22,680 bases of DNA from a virus: the IMG/VR virus record IMGVR_UViG_3300030099_000485, positions 3,894-26,573 of that record; one strand, written 5' to 3'. Below, one piece after another: positions 3,816 to 22,680 of the stretch (positions are counted from its first letter, which is position 1; each line of letters opens with the position of its first letter). The notes under the pieces were generated by a model. It ran no database searches. It worked only from the letters and a program-made list of their open reading frames with translations, and had not been told where the DNA came from. Made by a program: the position numbers and the translations under genes.

Positions 3816-4044
3816 GAAAAAAGAGGACTGGGAAATTGCAAGAGAAGAACGCAAGCAGGACATAGCAAAGGCTATCGCAGCCATGCGTCCAGAACAATGG
3901 AAGGCAGTGCAAATGGCAGTTGAAGCATTGCGTGACTTCGATCAAGACTACTTTGAAAACTATGAGATATTCTGCGCACAAGTGCCAAGAGATTTGAAAC
4001 GTGCATTAGAAGAACTTAAACATGAGTTTGATCTCAATGGCTAG
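3808..4044 (+). CDS. Hypothetical charged helical protein, 78 aa
   Basis: Starts at ATG 3808, inside the end of the previous gene, with AGAAAGG (3791-3797) upstream. The first 30 residues are very charged (MAKKKEDWEIAREERKQDI) and likely form a long helix. A second half (MRPEQWKAVQMAVEALRDFD) continues as helix. No cysteine pair, membrane segment or catalytic motif is visible. It could be a DNA- or protein-binding bundle. No family is recognised. Confidence 0.68.
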   Translation: MAKKKEDWEIAREERKQDIAKAIAAMRPEQWKAVQMAVEALRDFDQDYFENYEIFCAQVPRDLKRALEELKHEFDLNG

Positions 4045-7211: not shown

Positions 7212-9254
7212 ATGAAACTAACACTTGACGTAGAGAACACCGTTACTAAACGTGATGGAAAGATGCATCTTGATCCATTTGAACCTGATAACTCTTTGGT
7301 TATGGTTGGTGTGCTAACTGATCAAGGCGTGTGTCATACGTTTCCTTTTGACCACGCTGATGTTCCTAATCAGCAGGACTATCACGAACGTGTTCAATGG
7401 TATCTGGATCAAGCAACTATCCTAATATGCCACAATGCTGCATACGATTTGCTATGGTTGTGGGAGTCAGGCTTTAAGTACGATGGTCCAGTGTTTGATA
7501 CAATGCTGGCAGAATATGTGTTACAACGTGGGGTCAAAGAACCTTTATCTCTTGAGGCATGTGCTGAACGCTATGATCTGGATACAAAGAAGCAAGACAC
7601 CCTGAAAGAATATTTTAAGAAGGGTATGAGTGTTCGTGACATTCCATATGATGAACTCACTGAATATCTTATCGCTGACCTAGAAGCTACGCAACAACTA
7701 TCAGACAAACTAATGCTACGACTTAATAAGGTAGACGATGTTGGTTTGCGTGGCACAGTTGACTTGACTAATCAAGTAGCTATATGTTTAGCACGTATAT
7801 ATCAACGTGGTTTTGCTGTAGATTTAGGTGCGCTAGATGAAGTGCGCCAAGAATTTGAACAAGAAAAGTGTCAACTTATTGACAGCTTACAAGATCACAT
7901 TCGTGACATCATGGGTGACACTCCCATAAATCTTAACAGTCCAGAGCAACTATCGTGGGTTATATATAGCCGTAAGGTAAAAGATAAAACACTTTGGTCA
8001 AACACTATTGAACCTTACATGAAAGACACAGCCTTCAAAGACTTGATACGTGGGCAAACAGAACGTATTTATAAAACCTACGCGGTTCAGTGTAAAGATT
8101 GTCGTGGCACTGGATTCATTCGCAAGACAAAGAAAGATGGCACACCATTTGCCAAACCTAACAAATGCATTACTTGTGCAACAAGTGGTTATTTGTATAA
8201 ACCCACTAACAACGTAGCTGGTTTAAAGTTTATGCCACCTAACGCCAAGTGGGCTAGTGCTAATGGTTTTAGCACAAGTAAGGGTAATCTTGAGATGCTA
8301 GAAAAAGCAGCGAGAAGCAAAGGCATGGATGACGCAGTATCATTTTTGTCTAAAGTTCGTAGACTATCTGCTGTTGATACGTATCTCTCCTCTTTTGTAG
8401 AGGGAATACATACACACACTAAACAAGATGGCAAGTTGCATGTCAGACTTTTGCAACATAGAACAGCCACAGGTCGCCTATCAGGTGCAGACCCTAACAT
8501 GCAGAACATGCCACGTGGTGGTACTTTCCCTGTCAAGAGGGTGTTTGTATCTCGTTGGCCTGATGGTAAAGTATTGGAAGCAGACTTTGCCCAGCTAGAG
8601 TTTAGGGCGGCTGCATATTTATCACAAGATGGAGTAGCAATTGAAGAAGTATCTACTGGGTTTGATGTACACTCATACACCGCTAAAGTTATTACCGATG
8701 CTGGTCAGCCTACGAATAGACAGACAGCGAAGGCTCATACATTCGCGCCGTTATATGGAGCAACGGGCTTTGGCAGAACGCCAGCGGAAGCAGAATACTA
8801 CACCCACTTTACACAGAAATACCAAGGCATCGCAGATTGGCATACCAGATTGGCTAAAGAGGCTCTATCGACAGAGATGATTACAACACCATCTGGTCGT
8901 CAGTTTAAATTTGAGGGTGTAAAACGTTTAGAAAGTGGGAAGATAACAAACTTCACACAGATAAAAAACTACCCTGTGCAATCGTTTGCTACAGCAGATA
9001 TTGTGCCTATTGCTTTATTGCATATTGATAAGCTACTACAGGGTATGCAATCTTGTGTAGTCAACAGTGTACATGACAGTATTGTAGTAGATGTTCATCC
9101 AAGTGAAGAACAACAAGTAATAAATATAATTAAAAAAACTAATGATGATCTTCCGGGTTTAATCACAATGCGTTGGGGGATAGTGTTTAATGTACCACTA
9201 GAACTTGAGGCAAAAATAGGAAAAAATTGGCTTGACACTAATGATATAATGTGA
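7212..9254 (+). CDS. polA: Family A DNA polymerase with DnaJ-type zinc insertion
   Basis: 680 residues. The 3'-5' exonuclease domain shows Asp6/Glu8 (LDVENT), Asp79 (CHNAAYDLL) and Asp156 (YLIADLEAT). The polymerase motifs are A (ADFAQLEFR, Asp458 and Glu463), B (RQTAKAHTFAPLYG, Arg503, Lys507, Phe511, Tyr515) and C (SVHDSIVV, His621-Asp622). Between the domains, Cys294/Cys297 (CKDCRGTGF) and Cys319/Cys322 (CITCATSGY) form a partial DnaJ-type zinc site; this feature is known from the DNA polymerase of phage HMO-2011. Its place, in the thumb region, matches that of the thioredoxin-binding loop in T7 gp5. The enzyme replicates the phage genome with proofreading. GAGG at 7201-7204 is the ribosome binding site. 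Phe511 is the equivalent of E. coli Phe762. Confidence 0.97.
   Translation: MKLTLDVENTVTKRDGKMHLDPFEPDNSLVMVGVLTDQGVCHTFPFDHADVPNQQDYHERVQWYLDQATILICHNAAYDLLWLWESGFKYDGPVFDTMLAEYVLQRGVKEPLSLEACAERYDLDTKKQDTLKEYFKKGMSVRDIPYDELTEYLIADLEATQQLSDKLMLRLNKVDDVGLRGTVDLTNQVAICLARIYQRGFAVDLGALDEVRQEFEQEKCQLIDSLQDHIRDIMGDTPINLNSPEQLSWVIYSRKVKDKTLWSNTIEPYMKDTAFKDLIRGQTERIYKTYAVQCKDCRGTGFIRKTKKDGTPFAKPNKCITCATSGYLYKPTNNVAGLKFMPPNAKWASANGFSTSKGNLEMLEKAARSKGMDDAVSFLSKVRRLSAVDTYLSSFVEGIHTHTKQDGKLHVRLLQHRTATGRLSGADPNMQNMPRGGTFPVKRVFVSRWPDGKVLEADFAQLEFRAAAYLSQDGVAIEEVSTGFDVHSYTAKVITDAGQPTNRQTAKAHTFAPLYGATGFGRTPAEAEYYTHFTQKYQGIADWHTRLAKEALSTEMITTPSGRQFKFEGVKRLESGKITNFTQIKNYPVQSFATADIVPIALLHIDKLLQGMQSCVVNSVHDSIVVDVHPSEEQQVINIIKKTNDDLPGLITMRWGIVFNVPLELEAKIGKNWLDTNDIM
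9242..9251 (+). promoter_or_regulatory. Extended -10 promoter upstream of the SSB-like gene
   Basis: TGATATAATG at 9242-9251 contains a perfect TATAAT (9245-9250) with the TGn extension immediately before it, a form that needs little -35 sequence. It sits in the last codons of the polymerase gene. Transcription would begin about 9257, leaving a leader of about 40 nt. TTGACA at 9232-9237 is too close to serve as its -35. Confidence 0.5.
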
Positions 9255-12179: not shown

Positions 12180-14141
12180 ATGAACAATTATTTACCAACA
12201 GACTATCAAAACTTCATCGCGCTATCACGGTATGCACGATGGAAAGAAGATGAACAACGCCGTGAAACATGGGCAGAAACAGTAGAACGATACTTTGACT
12301 ATATGGAAGATCATTTATCAAAGATGGGTAGGCAAGGTTCGTCTGCAAAGAGTTACGCTATGCCTGTAGACTTACGTGCAGAACTAGAGGAAGCTGTGCT
12401 TAATCAAGACATAATGCCTAGCATGAGAGCATTAATGACTGCTGGCCCTGCATTAGATCGCTGTAATGTGGGCGCATACAACTGTTCCTATGTGCCTGTG
12501 GATAGCCCCAGAGCCTTTGATGAAACTATGTATATACTAATGTGTGGCACGGGAGTAGGTTTCTCTGTGGAACGTGAAAACGTAGACAGACTACCTATCG
12601 TAAATGAGTCTATGCACGAGACTGATACAGTAATCAAGGTTGGTGACTCTCGCCCCGGTTGGGCAAAGTCTTTGCGTGAACTTATCTCTTTGCTATATGC
12701 AGGTCAGATACCCAAGTGGGATGTATCAGAGGTGCGTCCTGCTGGTGCAAGGCTCAAGACATTTGGTGGTCGTGCCAGTGGCCCAGCACCACTAGAGGAA
12801 CTGTTTGAGTTTGTTATAGCCAAGTTCAAGGCTGCGACAGGTCGTAGACTATGGCCTATTGAGTGCCATGATATTATGTGTAAGATTGGTGAGGTTGTAG
12901 TTGTAGGAGGTGTACGCCGTTCTGCTCTTATCAGCCTGTCTAATCTTGGTGATGACCAGATGGCACACGCCAAGTCAGGACAGTGGTGGGACACAGAACC
13001 ACAACGTGCATTGGCTAACAATAGCGTAGCTTACAAGGGTAAGCCAGAAATGGGTACATTCATGCGTGAATGGGTTGCTCTTTATGAATCTAAGTCAGGT
13101 GAACGTGGCATCTTTAATCGTGAAGCAGCAAAAAGACAAGCAGCAAAAAATGGAAGACGAGATTCACAACAAAGTTTTGGATGTAATCCCTGCAGTGAAA
13201 TTATCTTGCGCCCATATCAATTTTGTAATTTGTCAGAGGTAGTTGCTCGTGCTAGTGATACACAACAAACACTACGCGAAAAGGTGCGCCTAGCTACAAT
13301 TTTAGGCACGTTCCAATCCACACTTACAGATTTCAAATATCTGCGTAAAGTATGGCAAAATAACACAGAGGAAGAAAGGTTACTTGGAGTATCTCTTACG
13401 GGTATAATGGATAACGACTTGCTTAGTGGTACATCAGCCCACCTTGGTAAAAATATTGGGCAGACACTTGAAACATTACGTGATACAGCAGTAGAGACTA
13501 ACGCTGCTATGGCTAAACAACTTGGTATACCACAGTCAACAGCTATCACGTGTGTTAAGCCTAGCGGCACAGTGTCGCAGCTTGTAGACAGTGCCAGTGG
13601 TATTCATGCAAGACACAACCCACACTACATTCGTACTGTACGTGGCGATAACAAAGACCCTCTTACACAGTTTATGATGAGTGCAGGAGTGCCAGCAGAG
13701 CCAGATGTTATGAAGCCAGAGTCTACGACAGTGTTCAGTTTTCCAATGGCATCACCACGTGGGGCAGTTACACGTACAATCCTGTCGGCTGTTGAACAGC
13801 TTGAGTTATGGCTTACTTATCAGCGTCATTGGTGTGAACATAAACCAAGTGTCACTATAAATGTAAAAGAACATGAGTGGCTTGAAGTAGCAGCTTGGGT
13901 ATATAAACACTTTGACGAGGTATCAGGCATTAGTTTCTTACCATTTGATAATCACACGTACAAACAAGCACCATATCAGGACTGTACAGAGGATGAGTAC
14001 CATGATATGGTAGCAAAGATGCCAAAGTCTATTGATTGGACATGGTTAAGAGATTATGAGAAAGAAGACACAACATCCGGTGGGCGTGAGTTAGCGTGTA
14101 CTGCAGATGCTTGTGAGATTGTAGACTTAAACGCAGCATGA
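12180..14141 (+). CDS. nrdJ: Class II (B12-dependent) ribonucleoside-triphosphate reductase
   Basis: 653 residues, the monomeric adenosylcobalamin-dependent type known from Lactobacillus leichmannii. Active-site residues fit by spacing: Cys102 (YNCSYVPVDS), thiyl Cys338 and Glu340 (NPCSEIIL), Cys349 (QFCNLSE, 11 residues on, as in the reference enzyme), CVKPSGTVSQL, and the C-terminal shuttle pair Cys640/Cys645 (CTADAC). It turns ribonucleotides into deoxynucleotides for phage replication, drawing on host cobalamin and thioredoxin. It needs no oxygen and no second subunit. GGAG at 12170-12173 is the ribosome binding site. DUF3310 and MazG-like genes nearby complete a nucleotide-pool module. 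Confidence 0.96.
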   Translation: MNNYLPTDYQNFIALSRYARWKEDEQRRETWAETVERYFDYMEDHLSKMGRQGSSAKSYAMPVDLRAELEEAVLNQDIMPSMRALMTAGPALDRCNVGAYNCSYVPVDSPRAFDETMYILMCGTGVGFSVERENVDRLPIVNESMHETDTVIKVGDSRPGWAKSLRELISLLYAGQIPKWDVSEVRPAGARLKTFGGRASGPAPLEELFEFVIAKFKAATGRRLWPIECHDIMCKIGEVVVVGGVRRSALISLSNLGDDQMAHAKSGQWWDTEPQRALANNSVAYKGKPEMGTFMREWVALYESKSGERGIFNREAAKRQAAKNGRRDSQQSFGCNPCSEIILRPYQFCNLSEVVARASDTQQTLREKVRLATILGTFQSTLTDFKYLRKVWQNNTEEERLLGVSLTGIMDNDLLSGTSAHLGKNIGQTLETLRDTAVETNAAMAKQLGIPQSTAITCVKPSGTVSQLVDSASGIHARHNPHYIRTVRGDNKDPLTQFMMSAGVPAEPDVMKPESTTVFSFPMASPRGAVTRTILSAVEQLELWLTYQRHWCEHKPSVTINVKEHEWLEVAAWVYKHFDEVSGISFLPFDNHTYKQAPYQDCTEDEYHDMVAKMPKSIDWTWLRDYEKEDTTSGGRELACTADACEIVDLNAA

Positions 14142-15533: not shown

Positions 15534-18500
15534 TTAGTCAAACACCCCTGCTTTTCTCATTTGTCGCAGGTATTTTACATAGTATAATAGCTTAGTATAA
15601 TCATATGTTTCACCATCTTGTGGTTCACCGTGTAGATCATGGTATACTTGCATTGCTCTTTCAGCATCTACTTTAGGCACTTTATTAAAAGCAGCTTTTT
15701 GCATTGGGTCAAATCCAAATCTTTCTTTAAATACATCTTGCTTGGAATTAAACTCAACCACATCCATAATGTCGCTACGATACTCTTGTATCACCCGTTT
15801 TAAGAAGTCTTTCTTTCCCTCTCTTGTAAGTTTATCATACACATCACTTTGCTCTATTGCAGGTACGACATAATCTGTAATGTATTCTCCCATAAATTGT
15901 GATATCAAAGCATCCGCTTCAGGCACACCAGTTTTTGCAAAAACAATCCTACGAGATATTTTGTTTTCTGCTAGTTCTTTTTCAAATCTATTTTTTCTCT
16001 CATTATATAAAACACCATATACCTGCCTAGAAAATGGGGTAACTCTGCGCAAATCCTCTGCACGTGTTGGTGATTGATATGTCTCTGATGGACGAGTTCC
16101 AATTAATTCTGAAAGGTACTCTTCAATTTTATAATTCATAGGAATACGAGCAAGAGATTTATTTATACCAAAACTTAACATGTCTGATGAATTAGTATCT
16201 TTAACTATACGTGCATCATCCGGTGCAGCGAATGTATTAAATGTATCTTGCAACATTGTTAACGGTATGCTATATGTGTTAATAATGTTTGCTGCTGCTG
16301 CAGTTAACATGCGTTCTACTTTTTGTGGATCATCTTCTGCCATGACATCACGAAGTGCAGCATCAAGTGCATACAATCCTGAACCCGCCCGAAACTGTGT
16401 GCCTGACAATGCTTGTATTGCGTCAGCCAACTCATTACGATCACCATATAATGGACGATCTTGTTCTTTGAATCCAGCTATTTTAGCAGTATCTTGATCT
16501 ATCGCCCTAGCAACAAGATCACCAACAAACAAAAATGGCGCAGCAGGGAAAAACGGTCTTAGATCATAGGTGCTACCGTCAGCTTTTTTACCTTCCCACC
16601 AGTTCTCACCTGCATGTTCTGACATTCTATAGCCGATAGCACCGATTAAAAATCCTGTGCCTACTAGACCTTTAGCCAACTCTTCGTAGTTATCTTGGTT
16701 CTTTGTGGCAAATCTTACAAAGCCAGCGTCCATTAAATATAGTGGTGAATACTCATACGTAAATCGCATGGCGTTTGCAATGAAGCGTGGGAATGGAACA
16801 AGGGATGTTGTAAGAAATGGGGCTTTGTGAATGCCGCTGATAATAGAACGGGCGAGAGGACTGTCAGGTGTTTTTTGATACGTAAAGTACAAAGCCTCTT
16901 CTACAGCTTTGTCTAGCTGTGCTTTACCCGTGGTGGTGCTAAACCTTCCTTTAAAATTTCCAGTACGAACAATGTCTTGCAAATTATATTCTTTAAAATC
17001 TGCCCTTGTTTTGTCGCCAGCCCGTATAGCTTGTGAGAACTCTTCATTTAATTGTCGCTTCAAGCTACCAACAAACGCTGCTCTTTTAAACATGTTATCG
17101 GATGCTTGGTTTAATGCGTTAAGATTTGCACCTATTGCTCTCATCTTGTCTAGCTTTACACCTGACCCCATATTTGTTGCGTCAACAATGTCCTGCAACT
17201 CACGAAACATTTGACTAGCTTTTGCTGAAAATCCAGATTTAAATACAGCTTCAATAGCCATAGCTTCTTTTTTATTTGTAATACCAAACAATATAGAAAA
17301 TACATCTTCATTAGCTTTGCCAACTAAAGACTTTTCTCCCGGTAATACTTTAGATATGCCTCTATCCAAGGCTTTTGTTGCAGCATCAATGCCTACACGT
17401 GCTAAACCAGATACAGTGTTACGCATAGTTGTTGCGGTCTGTGATGTCATAAATGCTAGACGTAAAGCATCAGCAGAACGAACACCATTTAGCATACGGC
17501 TTGCCACACCAACTTGAACTTCATCTGTAATAGCGTCTGCTTTTTCTAAGAATCTGCGTACACCAGCAGAACCTTCTTTTTCAAAAGTTTGCACAGCACC
17601 ATACAAATCACCCTTACGCTGTGCATTAAGACCAAACAAATCATCAAAGGACGCATCCAATAGTTTACGGACGGAAGCCGCGCCATTAAGTGTTCTAGCT
17701 GCAGCAGATACATCTGCCATAAATAAACTGGCAAAATCGTCTGGAGTTAAATCATATTTTTTAAATATATCACCAATTTCAAATTTAGTTTTTATTTCAT
17801 CTGCTGACATGCTACGAAGACCACGAGCAATGGTTTCTGTAATTCGTTCACGAGGTTGTCTTCCCCCAGCTTTTTGAACCAAGTCCATACCCATAGCAAA
17901 AACTCTTTTCTTTTTACTTGGGTCAAGAATAATATCAAATGTAGGAATAAAGTCAAATTCATCATCAGGCAGAGTTGTGCCAGCGGCTTCTTCTTGTTCT
18001 TTAATTACTTTGTCTTTAATCTTTGTTCTAGCTGCCTCACCTTCTGCTACACGTTCTGGATCAAGCGCACGTAATACTTCTTTTGTATCTGCCAACAATT
18101 CTTTATCTGCATTAAGTAATGTTTCGTCTGCTGCTTTGTCAGCCTTCTCAATATTAGCAAGTATAGCTTTGTCTGCATCATCAAGCAGGTCTTCGACATT
18201 ACGTTCTGCAAATCGTGAGAAGCCTGTCTTTGCAATACCGACTGCAGCGGCAGCAGGTAGCACACCACTGGCAACAGATGTTACAAGCAGTTCACTATTG
18301 TCAAACTCTCTACGCAAGTCTGCTTCAATCTCTGTTTTCTGTGCCGCTACATTTTGTAACGCACCGAATGCCGCCTCACCTGCAATTGTTGTCTTTACTG
18401 GATTAGATGCAGCAGCCTGTATCATACGACTGCCTATCCGTTGTGGTTTAAATGCTTGGCGTAGTGTACCAGCAACTGCAGCCTTCGCTGCTTGTGAAGT

Positions 18501-19061
18501 TGCAACACCTGCTGCCTTACCATAGCCGGGTAAAAGAAGCCCCAAATAAGTAGACGGTGCTTTGAGCAAACCCTCGACATAATCGCCAAAGGCATTCTCA
18601 GCACCGCCTTCCTCATAGAAGTGAGGCATCTCTCTAAATGTTTGGTACAGCAGACGATAGTCAGCCAGACGCATCTTTGCTTTCTCATCATTGCGTTTGG
18701 TAGAGTCAGCAGCCGCAGCAGATACGTAACCGTAGTCACCTGCTGTCGTCATTTCGTTTACGTCAAATGACCGAAAGTGTTCAATAAACTCATCAATGAC
18801 ATCTTCGTCATTTACGTTAGTCATGTTGTGTCGATCTGCCAAAAACCTCTTAGCAGCTTCAAACACAGCAGGATTACGTTTGATTGCCTCGTATGACTTT
18901 ACAGAGTTGTCAAATGTTTCATCACCGCCTCCAAATCTACGGCTTAAAAAATTACTCTGCTGATTAATTGCTGCGGTAGATGAAACCTGTGTTGGTATTG
19001 CCACATTAGTGTCTTCTTCTTCTTCAACAAGGTTAAATCTTTTTTGTAAGAAGTTTGACAT
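15534..19061 (-). CDS. Large internal virion (ejection) protein, 1175 aa
   Basis: Starts at ATG 19061, directly next to the previous stop, and is the last gene of the late operon. The N-terminus carries two copies of a motif: SNFLQKRF (residues 2-9) and SNFLSRRF (36-43). Long helical, Ala-rich, charged stretches alternate with Gly/Ala-rich hydrophobic ones (YLGLLLPGYGKAAGVA, LLVTSVASGVLPAAAAVGIA, GLVGTGFLIGAIGY, FFPAAPFLFVGDLVA). This size, composition and position at the end of a podovirus structural operon fit an internal core protein, like T7 gp16, that is ejected with the DNA and may span the host envelope. There is no recognisable lytic transglycosylase motif. The family assignment is inferred. 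Confidence 0.8.
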   Translation of the reverse strand: MSNFLQKRFNLVEEEEDTNVAIPTQVSSTAAINQQSNFLSRRFGGGDETFDNSVKSYEAIKRNPAVFEAAKRFLADRHNMTNVNDEDVIDEFIEHFRSFDVNEMTTAGDYGYVSAAAADSTKRNDEKAKMRLADYRLLYQTFREMPHFYEEGGAENAFGDYVEGLLKAPSTYLGLLLPGYGKAAGVATSQAAKAAVAGTLRQAFKPQRIGSRMIQAAASNPVKTTIAGEAAFGALQNVAAQKTEIEADLRREFDNSELLVTSVASGVLPAAAAVGIAKTGFSRFAERNVEDLLDDADKAILANIEKADKAADETLLNADKELLADTKEVLRALDPERVAEGEAARTKIKDKVIKEQEEAAGTTLPDDEFDFIPTFDIILDPSKKKRVFAMGMDLVQKAGGRQPRERITETIARGLRSMSADEIKTKFEIGDIFKKYDLTPDDFASLFMADVSAAARTLNGAASVRKLLDASFDDLFGLNAQRKGDLYGAVQTFEKEGSAGVRRFLEKADAITDEVQVGVASRMLNGVRSADALRLAFMTSQTATTMRNTVSGLARVGIDAATKALDRGISKVLPGEKSLVGKANEDVFSILFGITNKKEAMAIEAVFKSGFSAKASQMFRELQDIVDATNMGSGVKLDKMRAIGANLNALNQASDNMFKRAAFVGSLKRQLNEEFSQAIRAGDKTRADFKEYNLQDIVRTGNFKGRFSTTTGKAQLDKAVEEALYFTYQKTPDSPLARSIISGIHKAPFLTTSLVPFPRFIANAMRFTYEYSPLYLMDAGFVRFATKNQDNYEELAKGLVGTGFLIGAIGYRMSEHAGENWWEGKKADGSTYDLRPFFPAAPFLFVGDLVARAIDQDTAKIAGFKEQDRPLYGDRNELADAIQALSGTQFRAGSGLYALDAALRDVMAEDDPQKVERMLTAAAANIINTYSIPLTMLQDTFNTFAAPDDARIVKDTNSSDMLSFGINKSLARIPMNYKIEEYLSELIGTRPSETYQSPTRAEDLRRVTPFSRQVYGVLYNERKNRFEKELAENKISRRIVFAKTGVPEADALISQFMGEYITDYVVPAIEQSDVYDKLTREGKKDFLKRVIQEYRSDIMDVVEFNSKQDVFKERFGFDPMQKAAFNKVPKVDAERAMQVYHDLHGEPQDGETYDYTKLLYYVKYLRQMRKAGVFD

Positions 19062-21596
19062 CTATCTACTCATTAACCCACCACGTGACTTATAAGCAGA
19101 CACTTGTCTTTCTGCAGTGCGTCTGTCACGAATCATTTTAATAGCGTTAGCTAGTTCTCCACCGCCTTCCCCTTCGACAGCTTTCTTTAATGCAACCGTT
19201 TCTTCCTCTGTTATTGTACCATCCACAAACTTCATAGCCAACTGCACAGGATTAAGTTTTGTTTTTTTAATAGTTTCAGTTGTTACGTTTGCAGGAATAT
19301 CTTTAACGGCGTCCGTAAGAATATTTCTTAATGAAAAGTCTATCTCACCAACTTCAATAAATGGTTTTACTGTACTCCTATATGAAGCGACTGCTTGATC
19401 TAAAATTGGTTCAGCGTCTGCAGGATTAATGCCAAAAGCATTAGCTACGGCAAATATAGCTTTTTCTCTACGGGCAGGAGCAACACCACCCTTTGTAATT
19501 ATGCCACCCGATAAAAGCAAATCCTCTTGTTCTAACACTTTCAACACATTTTCTACATTAGCATCTTCAGGTTTCATTTTAGGTAGCGGTTGATTAATTT
19601 TATCAATCGCCCGATCTACCAGATTAGACACAGCTTCAGAAGAAACATTTAATTCATCCGCAAGGTCTCTCACTAAAATAGCTTTTTGATTTGTATTAAT
19701 ACTAACTTGATCTGGACCCACACCTGCTAAAGTGCCGATAGTTGATGTAGCTTTTTCTGTTACCGCTGCCTCAACAGTTGTTTCTATTTTAGATATTTCA
19801 TTATCTACTAAATTTGAAAATTCTGGACCGTGCATTTGTCCTGCAATATTAACAACATCTTGCGGGGAATCACCTTCAGATAGCACAGATGTAACCAGAT
19901 TTATGGCCCCATCTGATGTATTACTAAAGTCTGATTCTAAAGAAGACACTTGCTCTGAATCAAGACGTGTATCTGGTACAAATGTACCCGCTGCAATTTC
20001 TTGCTCCCGCTGCATTGCTTCAGGTGTTGATGCGTCCAACAATGCTTGTGTTTGTGCTGCCGTAGGTTCTGTACCTACGATTACATTACCTGTTTCACCA
20101 ACGCTTATGTCAGGAAGCCCCCTACCAGTTAGAAGCGTAATAGCACTGTCAATTACACCCTCTGGGACATTATACTGTGCGCCTATTGTTTTATAGCGTT
20201 GTGCAACGGAGGTTAAAATACTATTGTACCTTTCGGTAGCTTCAGCACCAGCACCCGTAACAGCAGCAATAAAAGAATCAGCGTCTATTTGTCGATCTTC
20301 ACCAATATTTACATTTAAATCTTTGTATATGCTAGGATGTTGTGCTTTAAATTCAGCTAACGCTGCTCTAGCAATATATCCTCTAAATGCTTCCACTTTG
20401 TCAAACGAGATACCAACCAACGCTTGTTCATTTGCTTCGATTGTTTTAATTCTAGCACGGTCTTCTTTAAATCCATCATTTGCATATTTTCCCGTGCTGT
20501 TCATGTAGTCTTGATTACCTTGTAATCTAGTTGCACGTCCTTTTACACGTTTAATGAGAGTAGCATTATCTACCTGCACACCATAATCTTCTGACTCAGC
20601 CATAAGTCTGTAGCCATCTTCCATACGGTCTTCTCTAAACGCAATGTTAGCCTCAATGGCTAATCTTTCTTTTGGCGACTTTGCATCACGCAGGGCAATA
20701 GTATCTTCTAACGTCTGTCTGCGTTCAATTAAACCACTCTGTTCCGTATCAAATGCTTTAAATTGCATTTCAGACATGGCTGATGTATCTTGTGTGGCAA
20801 GACGTGATAGTTTAAGGTTTATAGCTTGGATGGCAGAACTTTCTTCACCTGTCATAGATTTATTAAGAAGTTCATTAAGGCGTTCACTAGCTTTTGTAGC
20901 TAAATCTGGATCAGCGTCTGGATCATCTATAATGTTTCTAAGATAAGACAGCTTTTCGTTGACAGACTTTGTAGCGTACCCTAAACTCTCACGGTCAAAA
21001 GTATATCTATCAAAGGACAAAGATGTGGCTGTAGGTGTGGTCGTGAACCCAATCTGTTTCATCTGATCTTTAGCTTGTGCAGCACCTGCTGCTGTAGCGT
21101 CAAAGTCAGGCACAAGCGCACTTATTAGGCCACTACCTTTGATAGTGCCTTTAGGGAATATCATATCAGATGGGGCAAAGCTGCTTTCCGCGTCAGACAA
21201 GCTACGCACAATCTCTGACAAACCAAATTTGTTTGCTGGAACATCTACACTAGCACGATTAATAAAGTCAATAGGACTTTGACCTTTTGCCCTTGCCTCT
21301 TTCATAACGGCGATATCGTCTGTAAAACCTGACAAGCCACGTTGTTTATACAAAGCAGCAGCAATGTTTTGGGAGTTTACGTCATTTTGGTCGCCACCTA
21401 TGACGTAAGCAGCGTCCTTAATTAGTTGCTCTATCTCTTTGTCTTTTGACCTGCGTTCCTTTTCGCGTTCTTCTGCTTTCTTCAAACGCCACTTGGACAC
21501 CATGTCGATATTATCGCGTGTCCGTTCAATACTTTCTTTAAGCTGTGCGTCAACTGACCTAGCAAGACCTGTGGCAAAACCTGTAAGAAAACTCAT
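19062..21596 (-). CDS. Internal virion protein, 844 aa
   Basis: ATG 21596 overlaps the previous stop, with AGGAG close upstream. The protein starts MSFLTGFATGLARSVDAQLK and then is highly charged and helical (residues about 20-60 could be a coiled coil: KWRLKKAEEREKERRSKDKE). The middle is long, helical and Ala-rich, and the C-terminus ends RGGLMSR. No enzyme motif is visible. Its length and place next to the 1175-aa protein suit an internal core or scaffold-like protein of T7 gp15 type. It is mildly acidic over most of its length. Confidence 0.76.
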   Translation of the reverse strand: MSFLTGFATGLARSVDAQLKESIERTRDNIDMVSKWRLKKAEEREKERRSKDKEIEQLIKDAAYVIGGDQNDVNSQNIAAALYKQRGLSGFTDDIAVMKEARAKGQSPIDFINRASVDVPANKFGLSEIVRSLSDAESSFAPSDMIFPKGTIKGSGLISALVPDFDATAAGAAQAKDQMKQIGFTTTPTATSLSFDRYTFDRESLGYATKSVNEKLSYLRNIIDDPDADPDLATKASERLNELLNKSMTGEESSAIQAINLKLSRLATQDTSAMSEMQFKAFDTEQSGLIERRQTLEDTIALRDAKSPKERLAIEANIAFREDRMEDGYRLMAESEDYGVQVDNATLIKRVKGRATRLQGNQDYMNSTGKYANDGFKEDRARIKTIEANEQALVGISFDKVEAFRGYIARAALAEFKAQHPSIYKDLNVNIGEDRQIDADSFIAAVTGAGAEATERYNSILTSVAQRYKTIGAQYNVPEGVIDSAITLLTGRGLPDISVGETGNVIVGTEPTAAQTQALLDASTPEAMQREQEIAAGTFVPDTRLDSEQVSSLESDFSNTSDGAINLVTSVLSEGDSPQDVVNIAGQMHGPEFSNLVDNEISKIETTVEAAVTEKATSTIGTLAGVGPDQVSINTNQKAILVRDLADELNVSSEAVSNLVDRAIDKINQPLPKMKPEDANVENVLKVLEQEDLLLSGGIITKGGVAPARREKAIFAVANAFGINPADAEPILDQAVASYRSTVKPFIEVGEIDFSLRNILTDAVKDIPANVTTETIKKTKLNPVQLAMKFVDGTITEEETVALKKAVEGEGGGELANAIKMIRDRRTAERQVSAYKSRGGLMSR

Positions 21597-22123
21597 TAGC
21601 CTCTCCTACCCATTAAACCTGTTGCTCTACCCGTTGCTGCTTCTTTCATTTCATTTATGATTGCATCAGTTGTTTCTTGTTCTTGTGGTGAACCTTTCTC
21701 TGCAGCATCCTCTTCTGATTGTTCTTGCAGTTTTACTAGTGCTTTGTCAATCATTGTGCTACGAACCTCTGTGGACTTTTCCATACCAGTGTTGTACTCA
21801 ATGCCCTCTTCATCAGCCATAAACATAATTAGTTCCATAAGCACAGGAAGTACCAGCATACCTACATCAATGCTATGTTTACCTTCCATGACTCCTGACA
21901 GTTGGATTGAGTTAGCTACTGCAGTTACAGGCACACCCATCTCCAGAACATCCATAAGTTGCTCTGTAACATCATCGTTTGCAAAGCGAGGAATATAATA
22001 ATCTAGTGCCTCTTCTACTGTTACATGTTGTGCAGGAGATTGCCAAGGACGTGCGCCAAGTTCGTGCGTCATAGACATGCCAGCGATTGGAGCATCAAGC
22101 ATTGGTTCGTTGTTGATATCCAT
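21596..22123 (-). CDS. Probable virion-associated protein, 175 aa
   Basis: ATG 22123 overlaps the previous stop as TAATG. The N-terminal half has a hydrophobic, Met-rich stretch (VGMLVLPVLMELIMFMADEE) that may be a membrane-associated or buried helix. The second half is charged (KALVKLQEQSEEDAAEKGSPQ) and it ends ATGRATGLMGRRG. The last residues resemble the C-terminus of the downstream 844-aa protein. It is placed with structural genes; the exact role is unknown. Confidence 0.7.
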   Translation of the reverse strand: MDINNEPMLDAPIAGMSMTHELGARPWQSPAQHVTVEEALDYYIPRFANDDVTEQLMDVLEMGVPVTAVANSIQLSGVMEGKHSIDVGMLVLPVLMELIMFMADEEGIEYNTGMEKSTEVRSTMIDKALVKLQEQSEEDAAEKGSPQEQETTDAIINEMKEAATGRATGLMGRRG

Positions 22124-22335
22124 TATACTTCTTGTTCCTTTTTGTCGCGTATCATCTTCATGTAAGAGGCAACACGTTCTAAGGGTTGCCCCACACCATC
22201 CTCTTTCTTTTGCATACGATCTGGAGACTTAGATAACAATCCACCCAGCACAGGCTTGGGCTTTTCATTCTCTGCTTCTTTTTCAAGTCGCCTATTCATA
22301 CTGTGGTATAGCATACCTGCAGGATTAGTTTGCAT
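22123..22335 (-). CDS. Small virion-operon protein, 70 aa
   Basis: GAGG lies 7 nt before ATG 22335, which is inside the end of the previous gene. The 70-residue product is polar and basic, with NRRLEKEAENEKPKPVLGG, then GGLLSKSPDRMQKKEDG and a helical end (VASYMKMIRDKKEQEV). It is probably largely disordered. The GGLLSK segment resembles the GGLMSR end of the 844-aa protein. No family is recognised. Confidence 0.66.
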   Translation of the reverse strand: MQTNPAGMLYHSMNRRLEKEAENEKPKPVLGGLLSKSPDRMQKKEDGVGQPLERVASYMKMIRDKKEQEV

Positions 22336-22672
22336 AATTATACCTCACTTTATGTTTTTTTACAACTAAATTCATTAGCTGACGTATAATAAATTTAATC
22401 TTTGGCTTGTCTTTGATATACTCTGCAAAGTCTTTGCCATGCTTTACATATAGTTTGTACAGCCAACGAGGTGCATTCTTTTTCATCCAAGAACGGAACA
22501 TAAACCAACGGATGTCTGTGGGACCATAAACTTCACGGGCTACCCAACAGAACTCAATAAATGCGCTACCTAGTGTACCAATCAATCCACCAATTGCTGA
22601 ACCAGCGGCACTTTTGCCAGCAGCTTTTGTTGCGGCAGCTTGTGCATCAGCACTCAACTGTGCTATAGCCAT
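22325..22672 (-). CDS. CFI-box-like protein, 115 aa
   Basis: First gene of the minus-strand operon visible here; upstream sequence is cut at the window edge, so the ATG 22672 start is likely but its ribosome binding site cannot be seen. Residues 8-41 are Ala/Gly-rich and hydrophobic (SAIGGLIGTLGSAFIEF). CWVAREVYG follows at 42-50, then FMFRSWMKKNAP, LYVKHGKDFAEYI and a basic tail. The order C-x-V-A-x-x-x-YG, FR, YVKHG, A-x-x-I matches the C-terminal CFI-box layout I recall from bacterial proteins (CFIATAAYG, then FRD, YY..SP, A..I). Similar CWVAREVYG segments are recalled from marine phage structural proteins. The function is unknown; virion location is inferred from the operon. Confidence 0.72.
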   Translation of the reverse strand: MAIAQLSADAQAAATKAAGKSAAGSAIGGLIGTLGSAFIEFCWVAREVYGPTDIRWFMFRSWMKKNAPRWLYKLYVKHGKDFAEYIKDKPKIKFIIRQLMNLVVKKHKVRYNYAN

Positions 22673-22680
22673 GCTATTAA

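Follow-up and report, generated by a model that had tools for sequence, protein, structure and literature searches.

A mobile C-terminal domain of CFI-box ancestry on phage proteins with a likely place along the DNA exit path

We analyzed a stretch of 22,680 nucleotides (the window), which corresponds to positions 3,894 to 26,573 of the IMG/VR virus record IMGVR_UViG_3300030099_000485. At its right end, on the minus strand, is the end of a gene whose product carries what is very probably, judging from sequence comparisons, a mobile and strictly C-terminal helical domain of about 70 residues, of CFI-box ancestry, which is found on phage proteins with a likely position along the path by which DNA exits the virion. 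The CFI box, a domain of bacteria and archaea, has been named, but its role is unexplained. In a literature search, neither its name, nor the accession NF041770, nor the CFI motif was found in any paper. The relevant features of the window are:

22325..22680, minus strand: 3' end of a gp25-like gene, cut by the record end (stop codon at 22325-22327)
22328..22549, minus strand: phage-type CFI domain, from the Cys to the last residue, 74 codons (from sequence, profiles, and model)
22523..22549, minus strand: CWVAREVYG box (Cys codon at 22547-22549)
22550..22615, minus strand: Ala/Gly-rich, weakly hydrophobic segment ahead of the CFI domain
22123..22335, minus strand: 70-amino-acid gene, next after the gp25-like gene, whose end it overlaps by 11 bases
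21596..22123, minus strand: 175-amino-acid gene, in the position of HMO-2011 gp24
19062..21596, minus strand: 844-amino-acid gene, in the position of HMO-2011 gp23
15534..19061, minus strand: 1175-amino-acid gene, in the position of HMO-2011 gp22

The open reading frame at 22325..22672 was listed as 115 amino acids, and its reading frame stays open up to the window end, which is also the end of the 26,573-base record. In another record (L002) that is 97% identical over these 115 residues, the same residues terminate an ORF of 868 amino acids, and in Puniceispirillum phage HMO-2011 the homologous residues terminate gp25 (706 amino acids, YP_008320287.1, annotated as “hypothetical protein”). Because the record ends within an open frame and the homologues are longer, 115 amino acids is not the true length: by comparison with these homologues, the segment is the C-terminal end of a virion-operon protein of about 700-1350 amino acids that was cut by the contig end. 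The original prediction treated it as a small separate protein in front of the ejection genes; with the longer frame, it instead ends the first large protein in that row. The genes after it, of 70, 175, 844, and 1175 amino acids, have the same order as in HMO-2011, where gp25 is followed by an unannotated 76-amino-acid ORF, gp24, gp23, and gp22. Given this shared gene order and the homology to gp25, we identify the window as part of the genome of an HMO-2011-type phage and the segment as the C-terminus of its gp25-like protein. The two proteins are alike in the C-terminal CFI domain as well as in gene order, with the comparison covering the last 117 codons of the window gene, which is all that the record contains. 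Across the CFI domain, dN/dS was about 0.04-0.11 between the window and nine close relatives.

Some other features of these genomes were seen along the way. In HMO-2011, gp25 and gp24 are separated by the 76-amino-acid ORF (12194-12424 of record L001), which corresponds in position to the window's 70-amino-acid gene. Elsewhere in the window, a 190-amino-acid ORF (2145-2717) presumably resembles a GIY-YIG or T5orf172-type nuclease, by its motif. The DNA polymerase ORF (7212-9254) has one CxxCxGxG motif inside it and a degenerate second one, which recall the partial DnaJ domain of HMO-2011-type polymerases that is described in a passage of PMC6918029.

On its own, the window sequence scored 15.2 bits against NF041770 (E = 0.014, profile positions 26-68), which misses the curated cut-off of 40. 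It matched nothing in Pfam or PHROGs, and a search of the PDB by sequence gave no credible match for the domain. Among 26 other carriers, seven matched NF041770 at E values of up to 0.1 (best, 0.0066). Single-sequence searches with the window protein were too weak to decide the kinship. Comparisons between families gave much stronger scores. With hhalign, an alignment of 14 phage rows (A1) matched an alignment of eight plasmid rows and one phage row found with the CFI consensus (A2) with a score of 50.2 (P = 1.1e-9), while A1 with shuffled columns scored at most 18.1 in 200 shuffles and reversed A1 scored 10.8. The original prediction had named profile-profile comparison as the way to check the proposed kinship, and the larger alignments of 81 phage rows (A6) and of 61 of the 79 cellular rows (A7, from 80 cellular loci) gave a significant match (probability 98, P = 2.4e-13, 71 columns), which starts at the Cys with Cys aligned on Cys. 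Similarly, an HMM of A7 scored above 10 bits on every one of the 97 phage rows and on none of 970 shuffled rows (best shuffle, 9.2). With an HMM of A6, 50 of the 79 cellular rows exceeded the same score, against none of 790 shuffled rows. Because the family profiles on both sides score far above the shuffle controls, we accept, on the strength of these alignments, that the last 74 residues of the window protein are homologous to the cellular CFI-box-CTERM domain.

Both types start with C-aromatic-[VI]-A...YG, end the protein, are basic, and have four predicted helices in the same order. The phage type has the box C-[FYW]-[IV]-A-x-x-x-Y-G at the N-terminal side of the domain, and in 19 carriers that were picked by another region of the protein, the Cys was kept in all 19 and the Ala in 17. 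Counting from the Cys, helices are predicted at residues 2-8, 14-24, 28-45, and 49-73 of the phage domain and at 2-8, 14-25, 31-53, and 55-77 of the cellular domain, so that the two models, compared by helix layout, appear to share the order and spacing of their helices. The mean pLDDT was 86 for the cellular model and 65.7 for the phage model (115 residues; about 77-86 for residues 41-100 and lower beyond). The phage type differs in that it has fewer residues between helices 2 and 3, is missing both the RD motif after the LR pair and the SPP motif in helix 3 (from the A6-A7 alignment and the invariant columns), has an average of 4.8 Trp per domain (versus 0.85), and rides on likely virion proteins, unlike the cellular domain. 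Given the score below the NF041770 cut-off and the missing RD and SPP motifs, we set the phage type apart as a separate homologous subfamily, as defined by these alignments, rather than a curated member of NF041770. These two features might also suggest that the resemblance is accidental or that short helical motifs converged, with no ancestry shared with the CFI box, but this is very improbable, as the shuffle controls fall far below the real profile scores and the phage and cellular models have equal helix order and spacing. The proposal that the CWVAREVYG region is kin to the CFI box is thus borne out by shuffle-controlled profiles and the predicted helix layout, even though the window sequence falls below the NF041770 cut-off.

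In a tree of the domain (136 phage rows and 40 of the 79 cellular rows), the phage rows lie on one side of a branch with a support of 99; this tree has 66 columns, long branches meet in it, and its phage rows were selected by motif, so we do not count it as proof of a single origin. In fold searches of the PDB, no structure matched below E = 6.8 with the phage model or below E = 8.5 with the cellular model, and such an absence proves nothing; the best Z from VIA-align was just 2.1. In BFVD, two uncultured phage proteins were found at E < 0.001 (A0A6J7X5H9, E = 9.5e-5, and A0A6J5QZ65, E = 2e-4), one of which carries the annotation “intramolecular chaperone auto-processing domain.”

Scanning IMG/VR with A1 gave at least 579 confirmed stretches with the phage-type domain, of which 80 were kept, and the exact DNA pattern for CWVAREVYG found at least 120 stretches. 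Among the matches listed from the pattern scan (119 stretches, L212-L330, one match each, with no length limit imposed), the stop was 63-95 codons after the Cys codon in all 113 closed frames, and six frames were open. The phage-type domain is thus strictly C-terminal among the matches listed. We make this claim from these limit-free frames because the regular expressions that we used elsewhere took phage domains of under 110 residues (the 97-row set) and cellular ends of 50-140 residues. The 97 phage rows hold 80 distinct domains, with some contigs occurring twice; two loci that the regular expressions missed (L060, with CWVALEVYG, and L186) were left out. A tblastn search of 50,697 phage records, with the window protein and the domains of two other carrier groups as queries, found the domain, within the reach of tblastn, in HMO-2011 alone (two records), and near records may be left out of this count. 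In 299 Pseudomonadota genomes, the search for the phage-type domain gave one marginal partial match with an internal stop; the cellular CFI box was over the cut-off in 13 of the same number (299) of genomes drawn.

The canonical CFI box was identified at 11 loci in viral contigs. It is present in few viral contigs (2501-2707 of L131, Clostridioides phage pCD1602_4; L410-L420), as compared to hundreds of phage-type stretches. Cellular relatives sit on proteins of many kinds and also occur on plasmids (42 records). In 13 of the 79 cellular CFI boxes (from L132-L211), a Gly/Ser-rich linker lies ahead of the domain (eight or more of 12), and in 14 of 79 the box runs on into a hydrophobic tail whose end is basic, which is like a sorting or anchor region. 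A signal-like N-terminus was seen in 11 of the 79 cellular carriers, and several carriers look cytosolic by eye; this speaks against taking membrane docking as a general property of CFI domains.

To follow the domain among close relatives, we chose 80 relatives of gp25 by a different part of the protein (A8). The 3' end is closed in 74 of them and open in the other six; the domain is present in 19 of the 74 and absent from 55. Several relatives without the domain stop directly after the Ala/Gly segment; for example, one ends in ...GTLGSAFIEFG, beside ...GTLGSAFIEFCWVAREVYG in a relative with the domain. Among these relatives, the CFI domain is present or absent as a unit at the end of the protein. 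A tree of the core protein (81 rows, 21 with the domain) needs at least 12 changes, four of them forced by well supported branches, and the mean after shuffling is 18.7; the tree was made by a quick method with SH-aLRT support only, and recombination may inflate the number of changes. The gp25 core is present in 27 phage records, and we examined 18 of them. Of these named records, one (HMO-2011) has the CFI domain, two end in Peptidase_S74, and 15 have neither, where the C-terminus of the 15 was judged by eye and S74 was identified by Pfam in the two S74 records only. The A6 profile, run across the whole record, had no match in 17 of the 18, and in five IMG/VR records its match was confined to the Ala/Gly segment. 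In tail fibres, Peptidase_S74 acts as a chaperone that processes itself. CRP-738 (2579-4990 of L041) and CRP-3 (3197-5053 of L043) have gp25 relatives in which this domain (PF13884) scores over the cut-off and occupies the C-terminal slot of the CFI domain on the same core protein.

By BLAST, 60 of the 97 carrier rows are HMO-type and the remainder form six other groups; looser BLAST clustering put 171 rows into eight groups, in which Ala/Gln-rich stretches may over-join proteins. Comparing the N-terminal parts with hhalign (10 column shuffles per pair) related C2-C4 and S56-S74, but the HMO-type N-terminal part had no clear relative among the other groups (best E = 0.023, with a score of 28.5 and shuffles at 18.0 or below). 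Four of the 26 non-HMO carriers matched phrog_4287, “DNA ejection protein,” at E up to 0.001 (best, 9.2e-14). In L065 the match (9.2e-14) spans residues 47-316 and the Cys of the box is at 317; in L056 (7.3e-12) it spans residues 4-338 and the Cys is at 353; and L234 also matches phrog_4287 (1.7e-14). Two single contigs link the domain to tails: L254 (1356-2303) has a tail assembly protein like lambda gpI (phrog_32, 4.2e-27) capped by the CFI domain, and L238 (2450-3415, minus strand) has a tail-tube match (phrog_45, 5.3e-5) ahead of it. Although several other carriers match the phrog_4287 ejection proteins, the HMO-type family does not, and PHROGs gave no credible match, ejection families included, for the window's own HMO-type N-terminal family. 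For the window protein, it is therefore gene order that points to a role in ejection.

The carrier is most often encoded by the first gene of a row for likely ejection proteins. In 45 of the 55 carriers with at least 4.5 kb downstream, one of the next three genes encodes at least 800 amino acids, as compared to 49 of 249 other ORFs from the same loci (of at least 200 amino acids, on both strands). We scanned 24 downstream genes, and one matched “internal virion protein with endolysin domain” (3.1e-4), one matched “baseplate hub subunit and tail lysozyme” (2.7e-7), and the other matches were mostly to families of no assigned function. As the gene that follows the gp25 relative, CRP-603 has a cell wall hydrolase and CRP-13 has a transglycosylase-like gene (SLT, 21.7 bits versus a cut-off of 21.3); in CRP-2 and CRP-9, the gene in this place had no credible Pfam match. 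The virion-operon or ejection setting that was originally proposed thus agrees with the controlled gene order and with the DNA-ejection-protein matches of several other carriers.

According to PMC8954989, ejection genes in T7-like phages are ordered gp14-like, gp15, and then a larger gp16, and T7 gp14 (about 200 amino acids) leaves the virion first and sits in the outer membrane. The gp25-like genes resemble T7 gp14 in standing near the start of a row whose last gene is very large. However, the window's row has two small genes more than T7 between the gene in the gp14 position and the large genes, and gp25-like proteins with the CFI domain are about 3.5-7 times as long as T7 gp14. The main text of a 2022 paper on HMO-2011-type phages (PMC9038755) has no mention of gp25, internal proteins, proteomics, or mass spectrometry. 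From gene order and the kin of the other carriers, gp25 would be expected to be ejected from the virion.

The phage domains are basic (median net charge of +8; positive in 133 of 142 distinct domains), as are the cellular domains (median of +5; positive in 71 of 79). The aromatic fraction is 0.188 in the phage domains versus 0.056 in the rest of the same proteins, and the phage domain has invariant aromatic columns and a high content of Trp and Tyr. When the hydrophobic moment of each of the four helices predicted for the window sequence was compared with permutations, one helix proved clearly amphipathic (0.0095) and the others did not (0.12, 0.29, and 0.88). As to the hydrophobic Ala/Gly-rich helix that was described ahead of the domain, the segment is rich in Ala and Gly, but its hydrophobicity is weak: the median of the best 19-residue Kyte-Doolittle mean is 1.22, and two of the 97 rows reach 1.6. 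This segment, which has a pLDDT of under 50 in the predicted model, is not a classical transmembrane helix, and its low hydrophobicity argues against plain membrane insertion there.

Our preferred explanation is that the domain docks at the host membrane. The long helical carrier protein would be packed inside the virion and would leave it first, like T7 gp14; its basic, Trp/Tyr-rich C-terminal domain would then rest against an anionic surface, most likely at the host-membrane interface, and so fix the C-terminus of the ejected protein there. Docking could aid delivery in some hosts and be dispensable for the basic machine, since close relatives do without the domain. Three observations lead us to rank membrane docking first: the carriers that can be recognized are proteins of ejection or of tails, the domain combines a basic character with a high content of Trp and Tyr, and 14 of the 79 cellular relatives run into a hydrophobic tail. 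Against docking are the weak hydrophobicity of the Ala/Gly segment, the single clearly amphipathic helix among four, and the lack of a match between the window's N-terminal family and any ejection PHROG. Action at the host membrane is thus a suggestion, and we hold the explanation as a whole, with its docking mechanism, tentatively.

Nearly as likely as docking, though also short of probable, is that the domain is an assembly module that works before ejection, not after: it might fold or oligomerize the long helical protein or fasten it to a neighbor in the capsid, as a C-terminal chaperone or plug. What keeps this idea in close contention is that a chaperone domain, S74, fills the same slot in the CRP-738 and CRP-3 relatives of gp25, and the strictly C-terminal position and the capping of proteins of other tail types (L254 and L238) also favor it. 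However, 55 of 74 relatives keep the rest of the protein without the domain, and the cellular relatives are on proteins of many kinds. Contact with DNA, in which the basic domain would bind packaged DNA and hold the protein in the capsid or guide the genome end, is unlikely. The prevalence of positive net charge in both phage domains (133 of 142) and cellular domains (71 of 79) would suit it, but nine of the 142 phage domains are not positive, and the abundant Trp and Tyr and the invariant aromatic columns suit an interface better. Most improbable of these is an effector that enters with the ejection protein and acts on the host (by exclusion of other phages or counter-defence): it would account for the patchy presence among relatives and for cellular relatives on plasmids, but we noticed no catalytic motif, and PDB searches by sequence and by fold gave no match to a solved structure.

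A broader idea, which we consider doubtful, is that a single mobile C-terminal module, inherited in common with bacterial and archaeal proteins, might be a general delivery tag, docking at the host membrane those virion proteins that line or leave the DNA exit path. Such a tag would span short-tailed, lambda-like, and other long-tailed phages and would be common in uncultured phages yet almost unseen in isolates. An end piece that is present or absent on a likely phage ejection protein is a tractable place to learn what the CFI box does, because HMO-2011 has the domain, 17 other isolate or named records with the core are without it, and the position of the junction can be given to a few residues. 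The phage-type CFI domain also marks a large group of uncultured phages, and it may serve as an anchor for naming ejection genes, many of which are annotated as “hypothetical protein” in named relatives.
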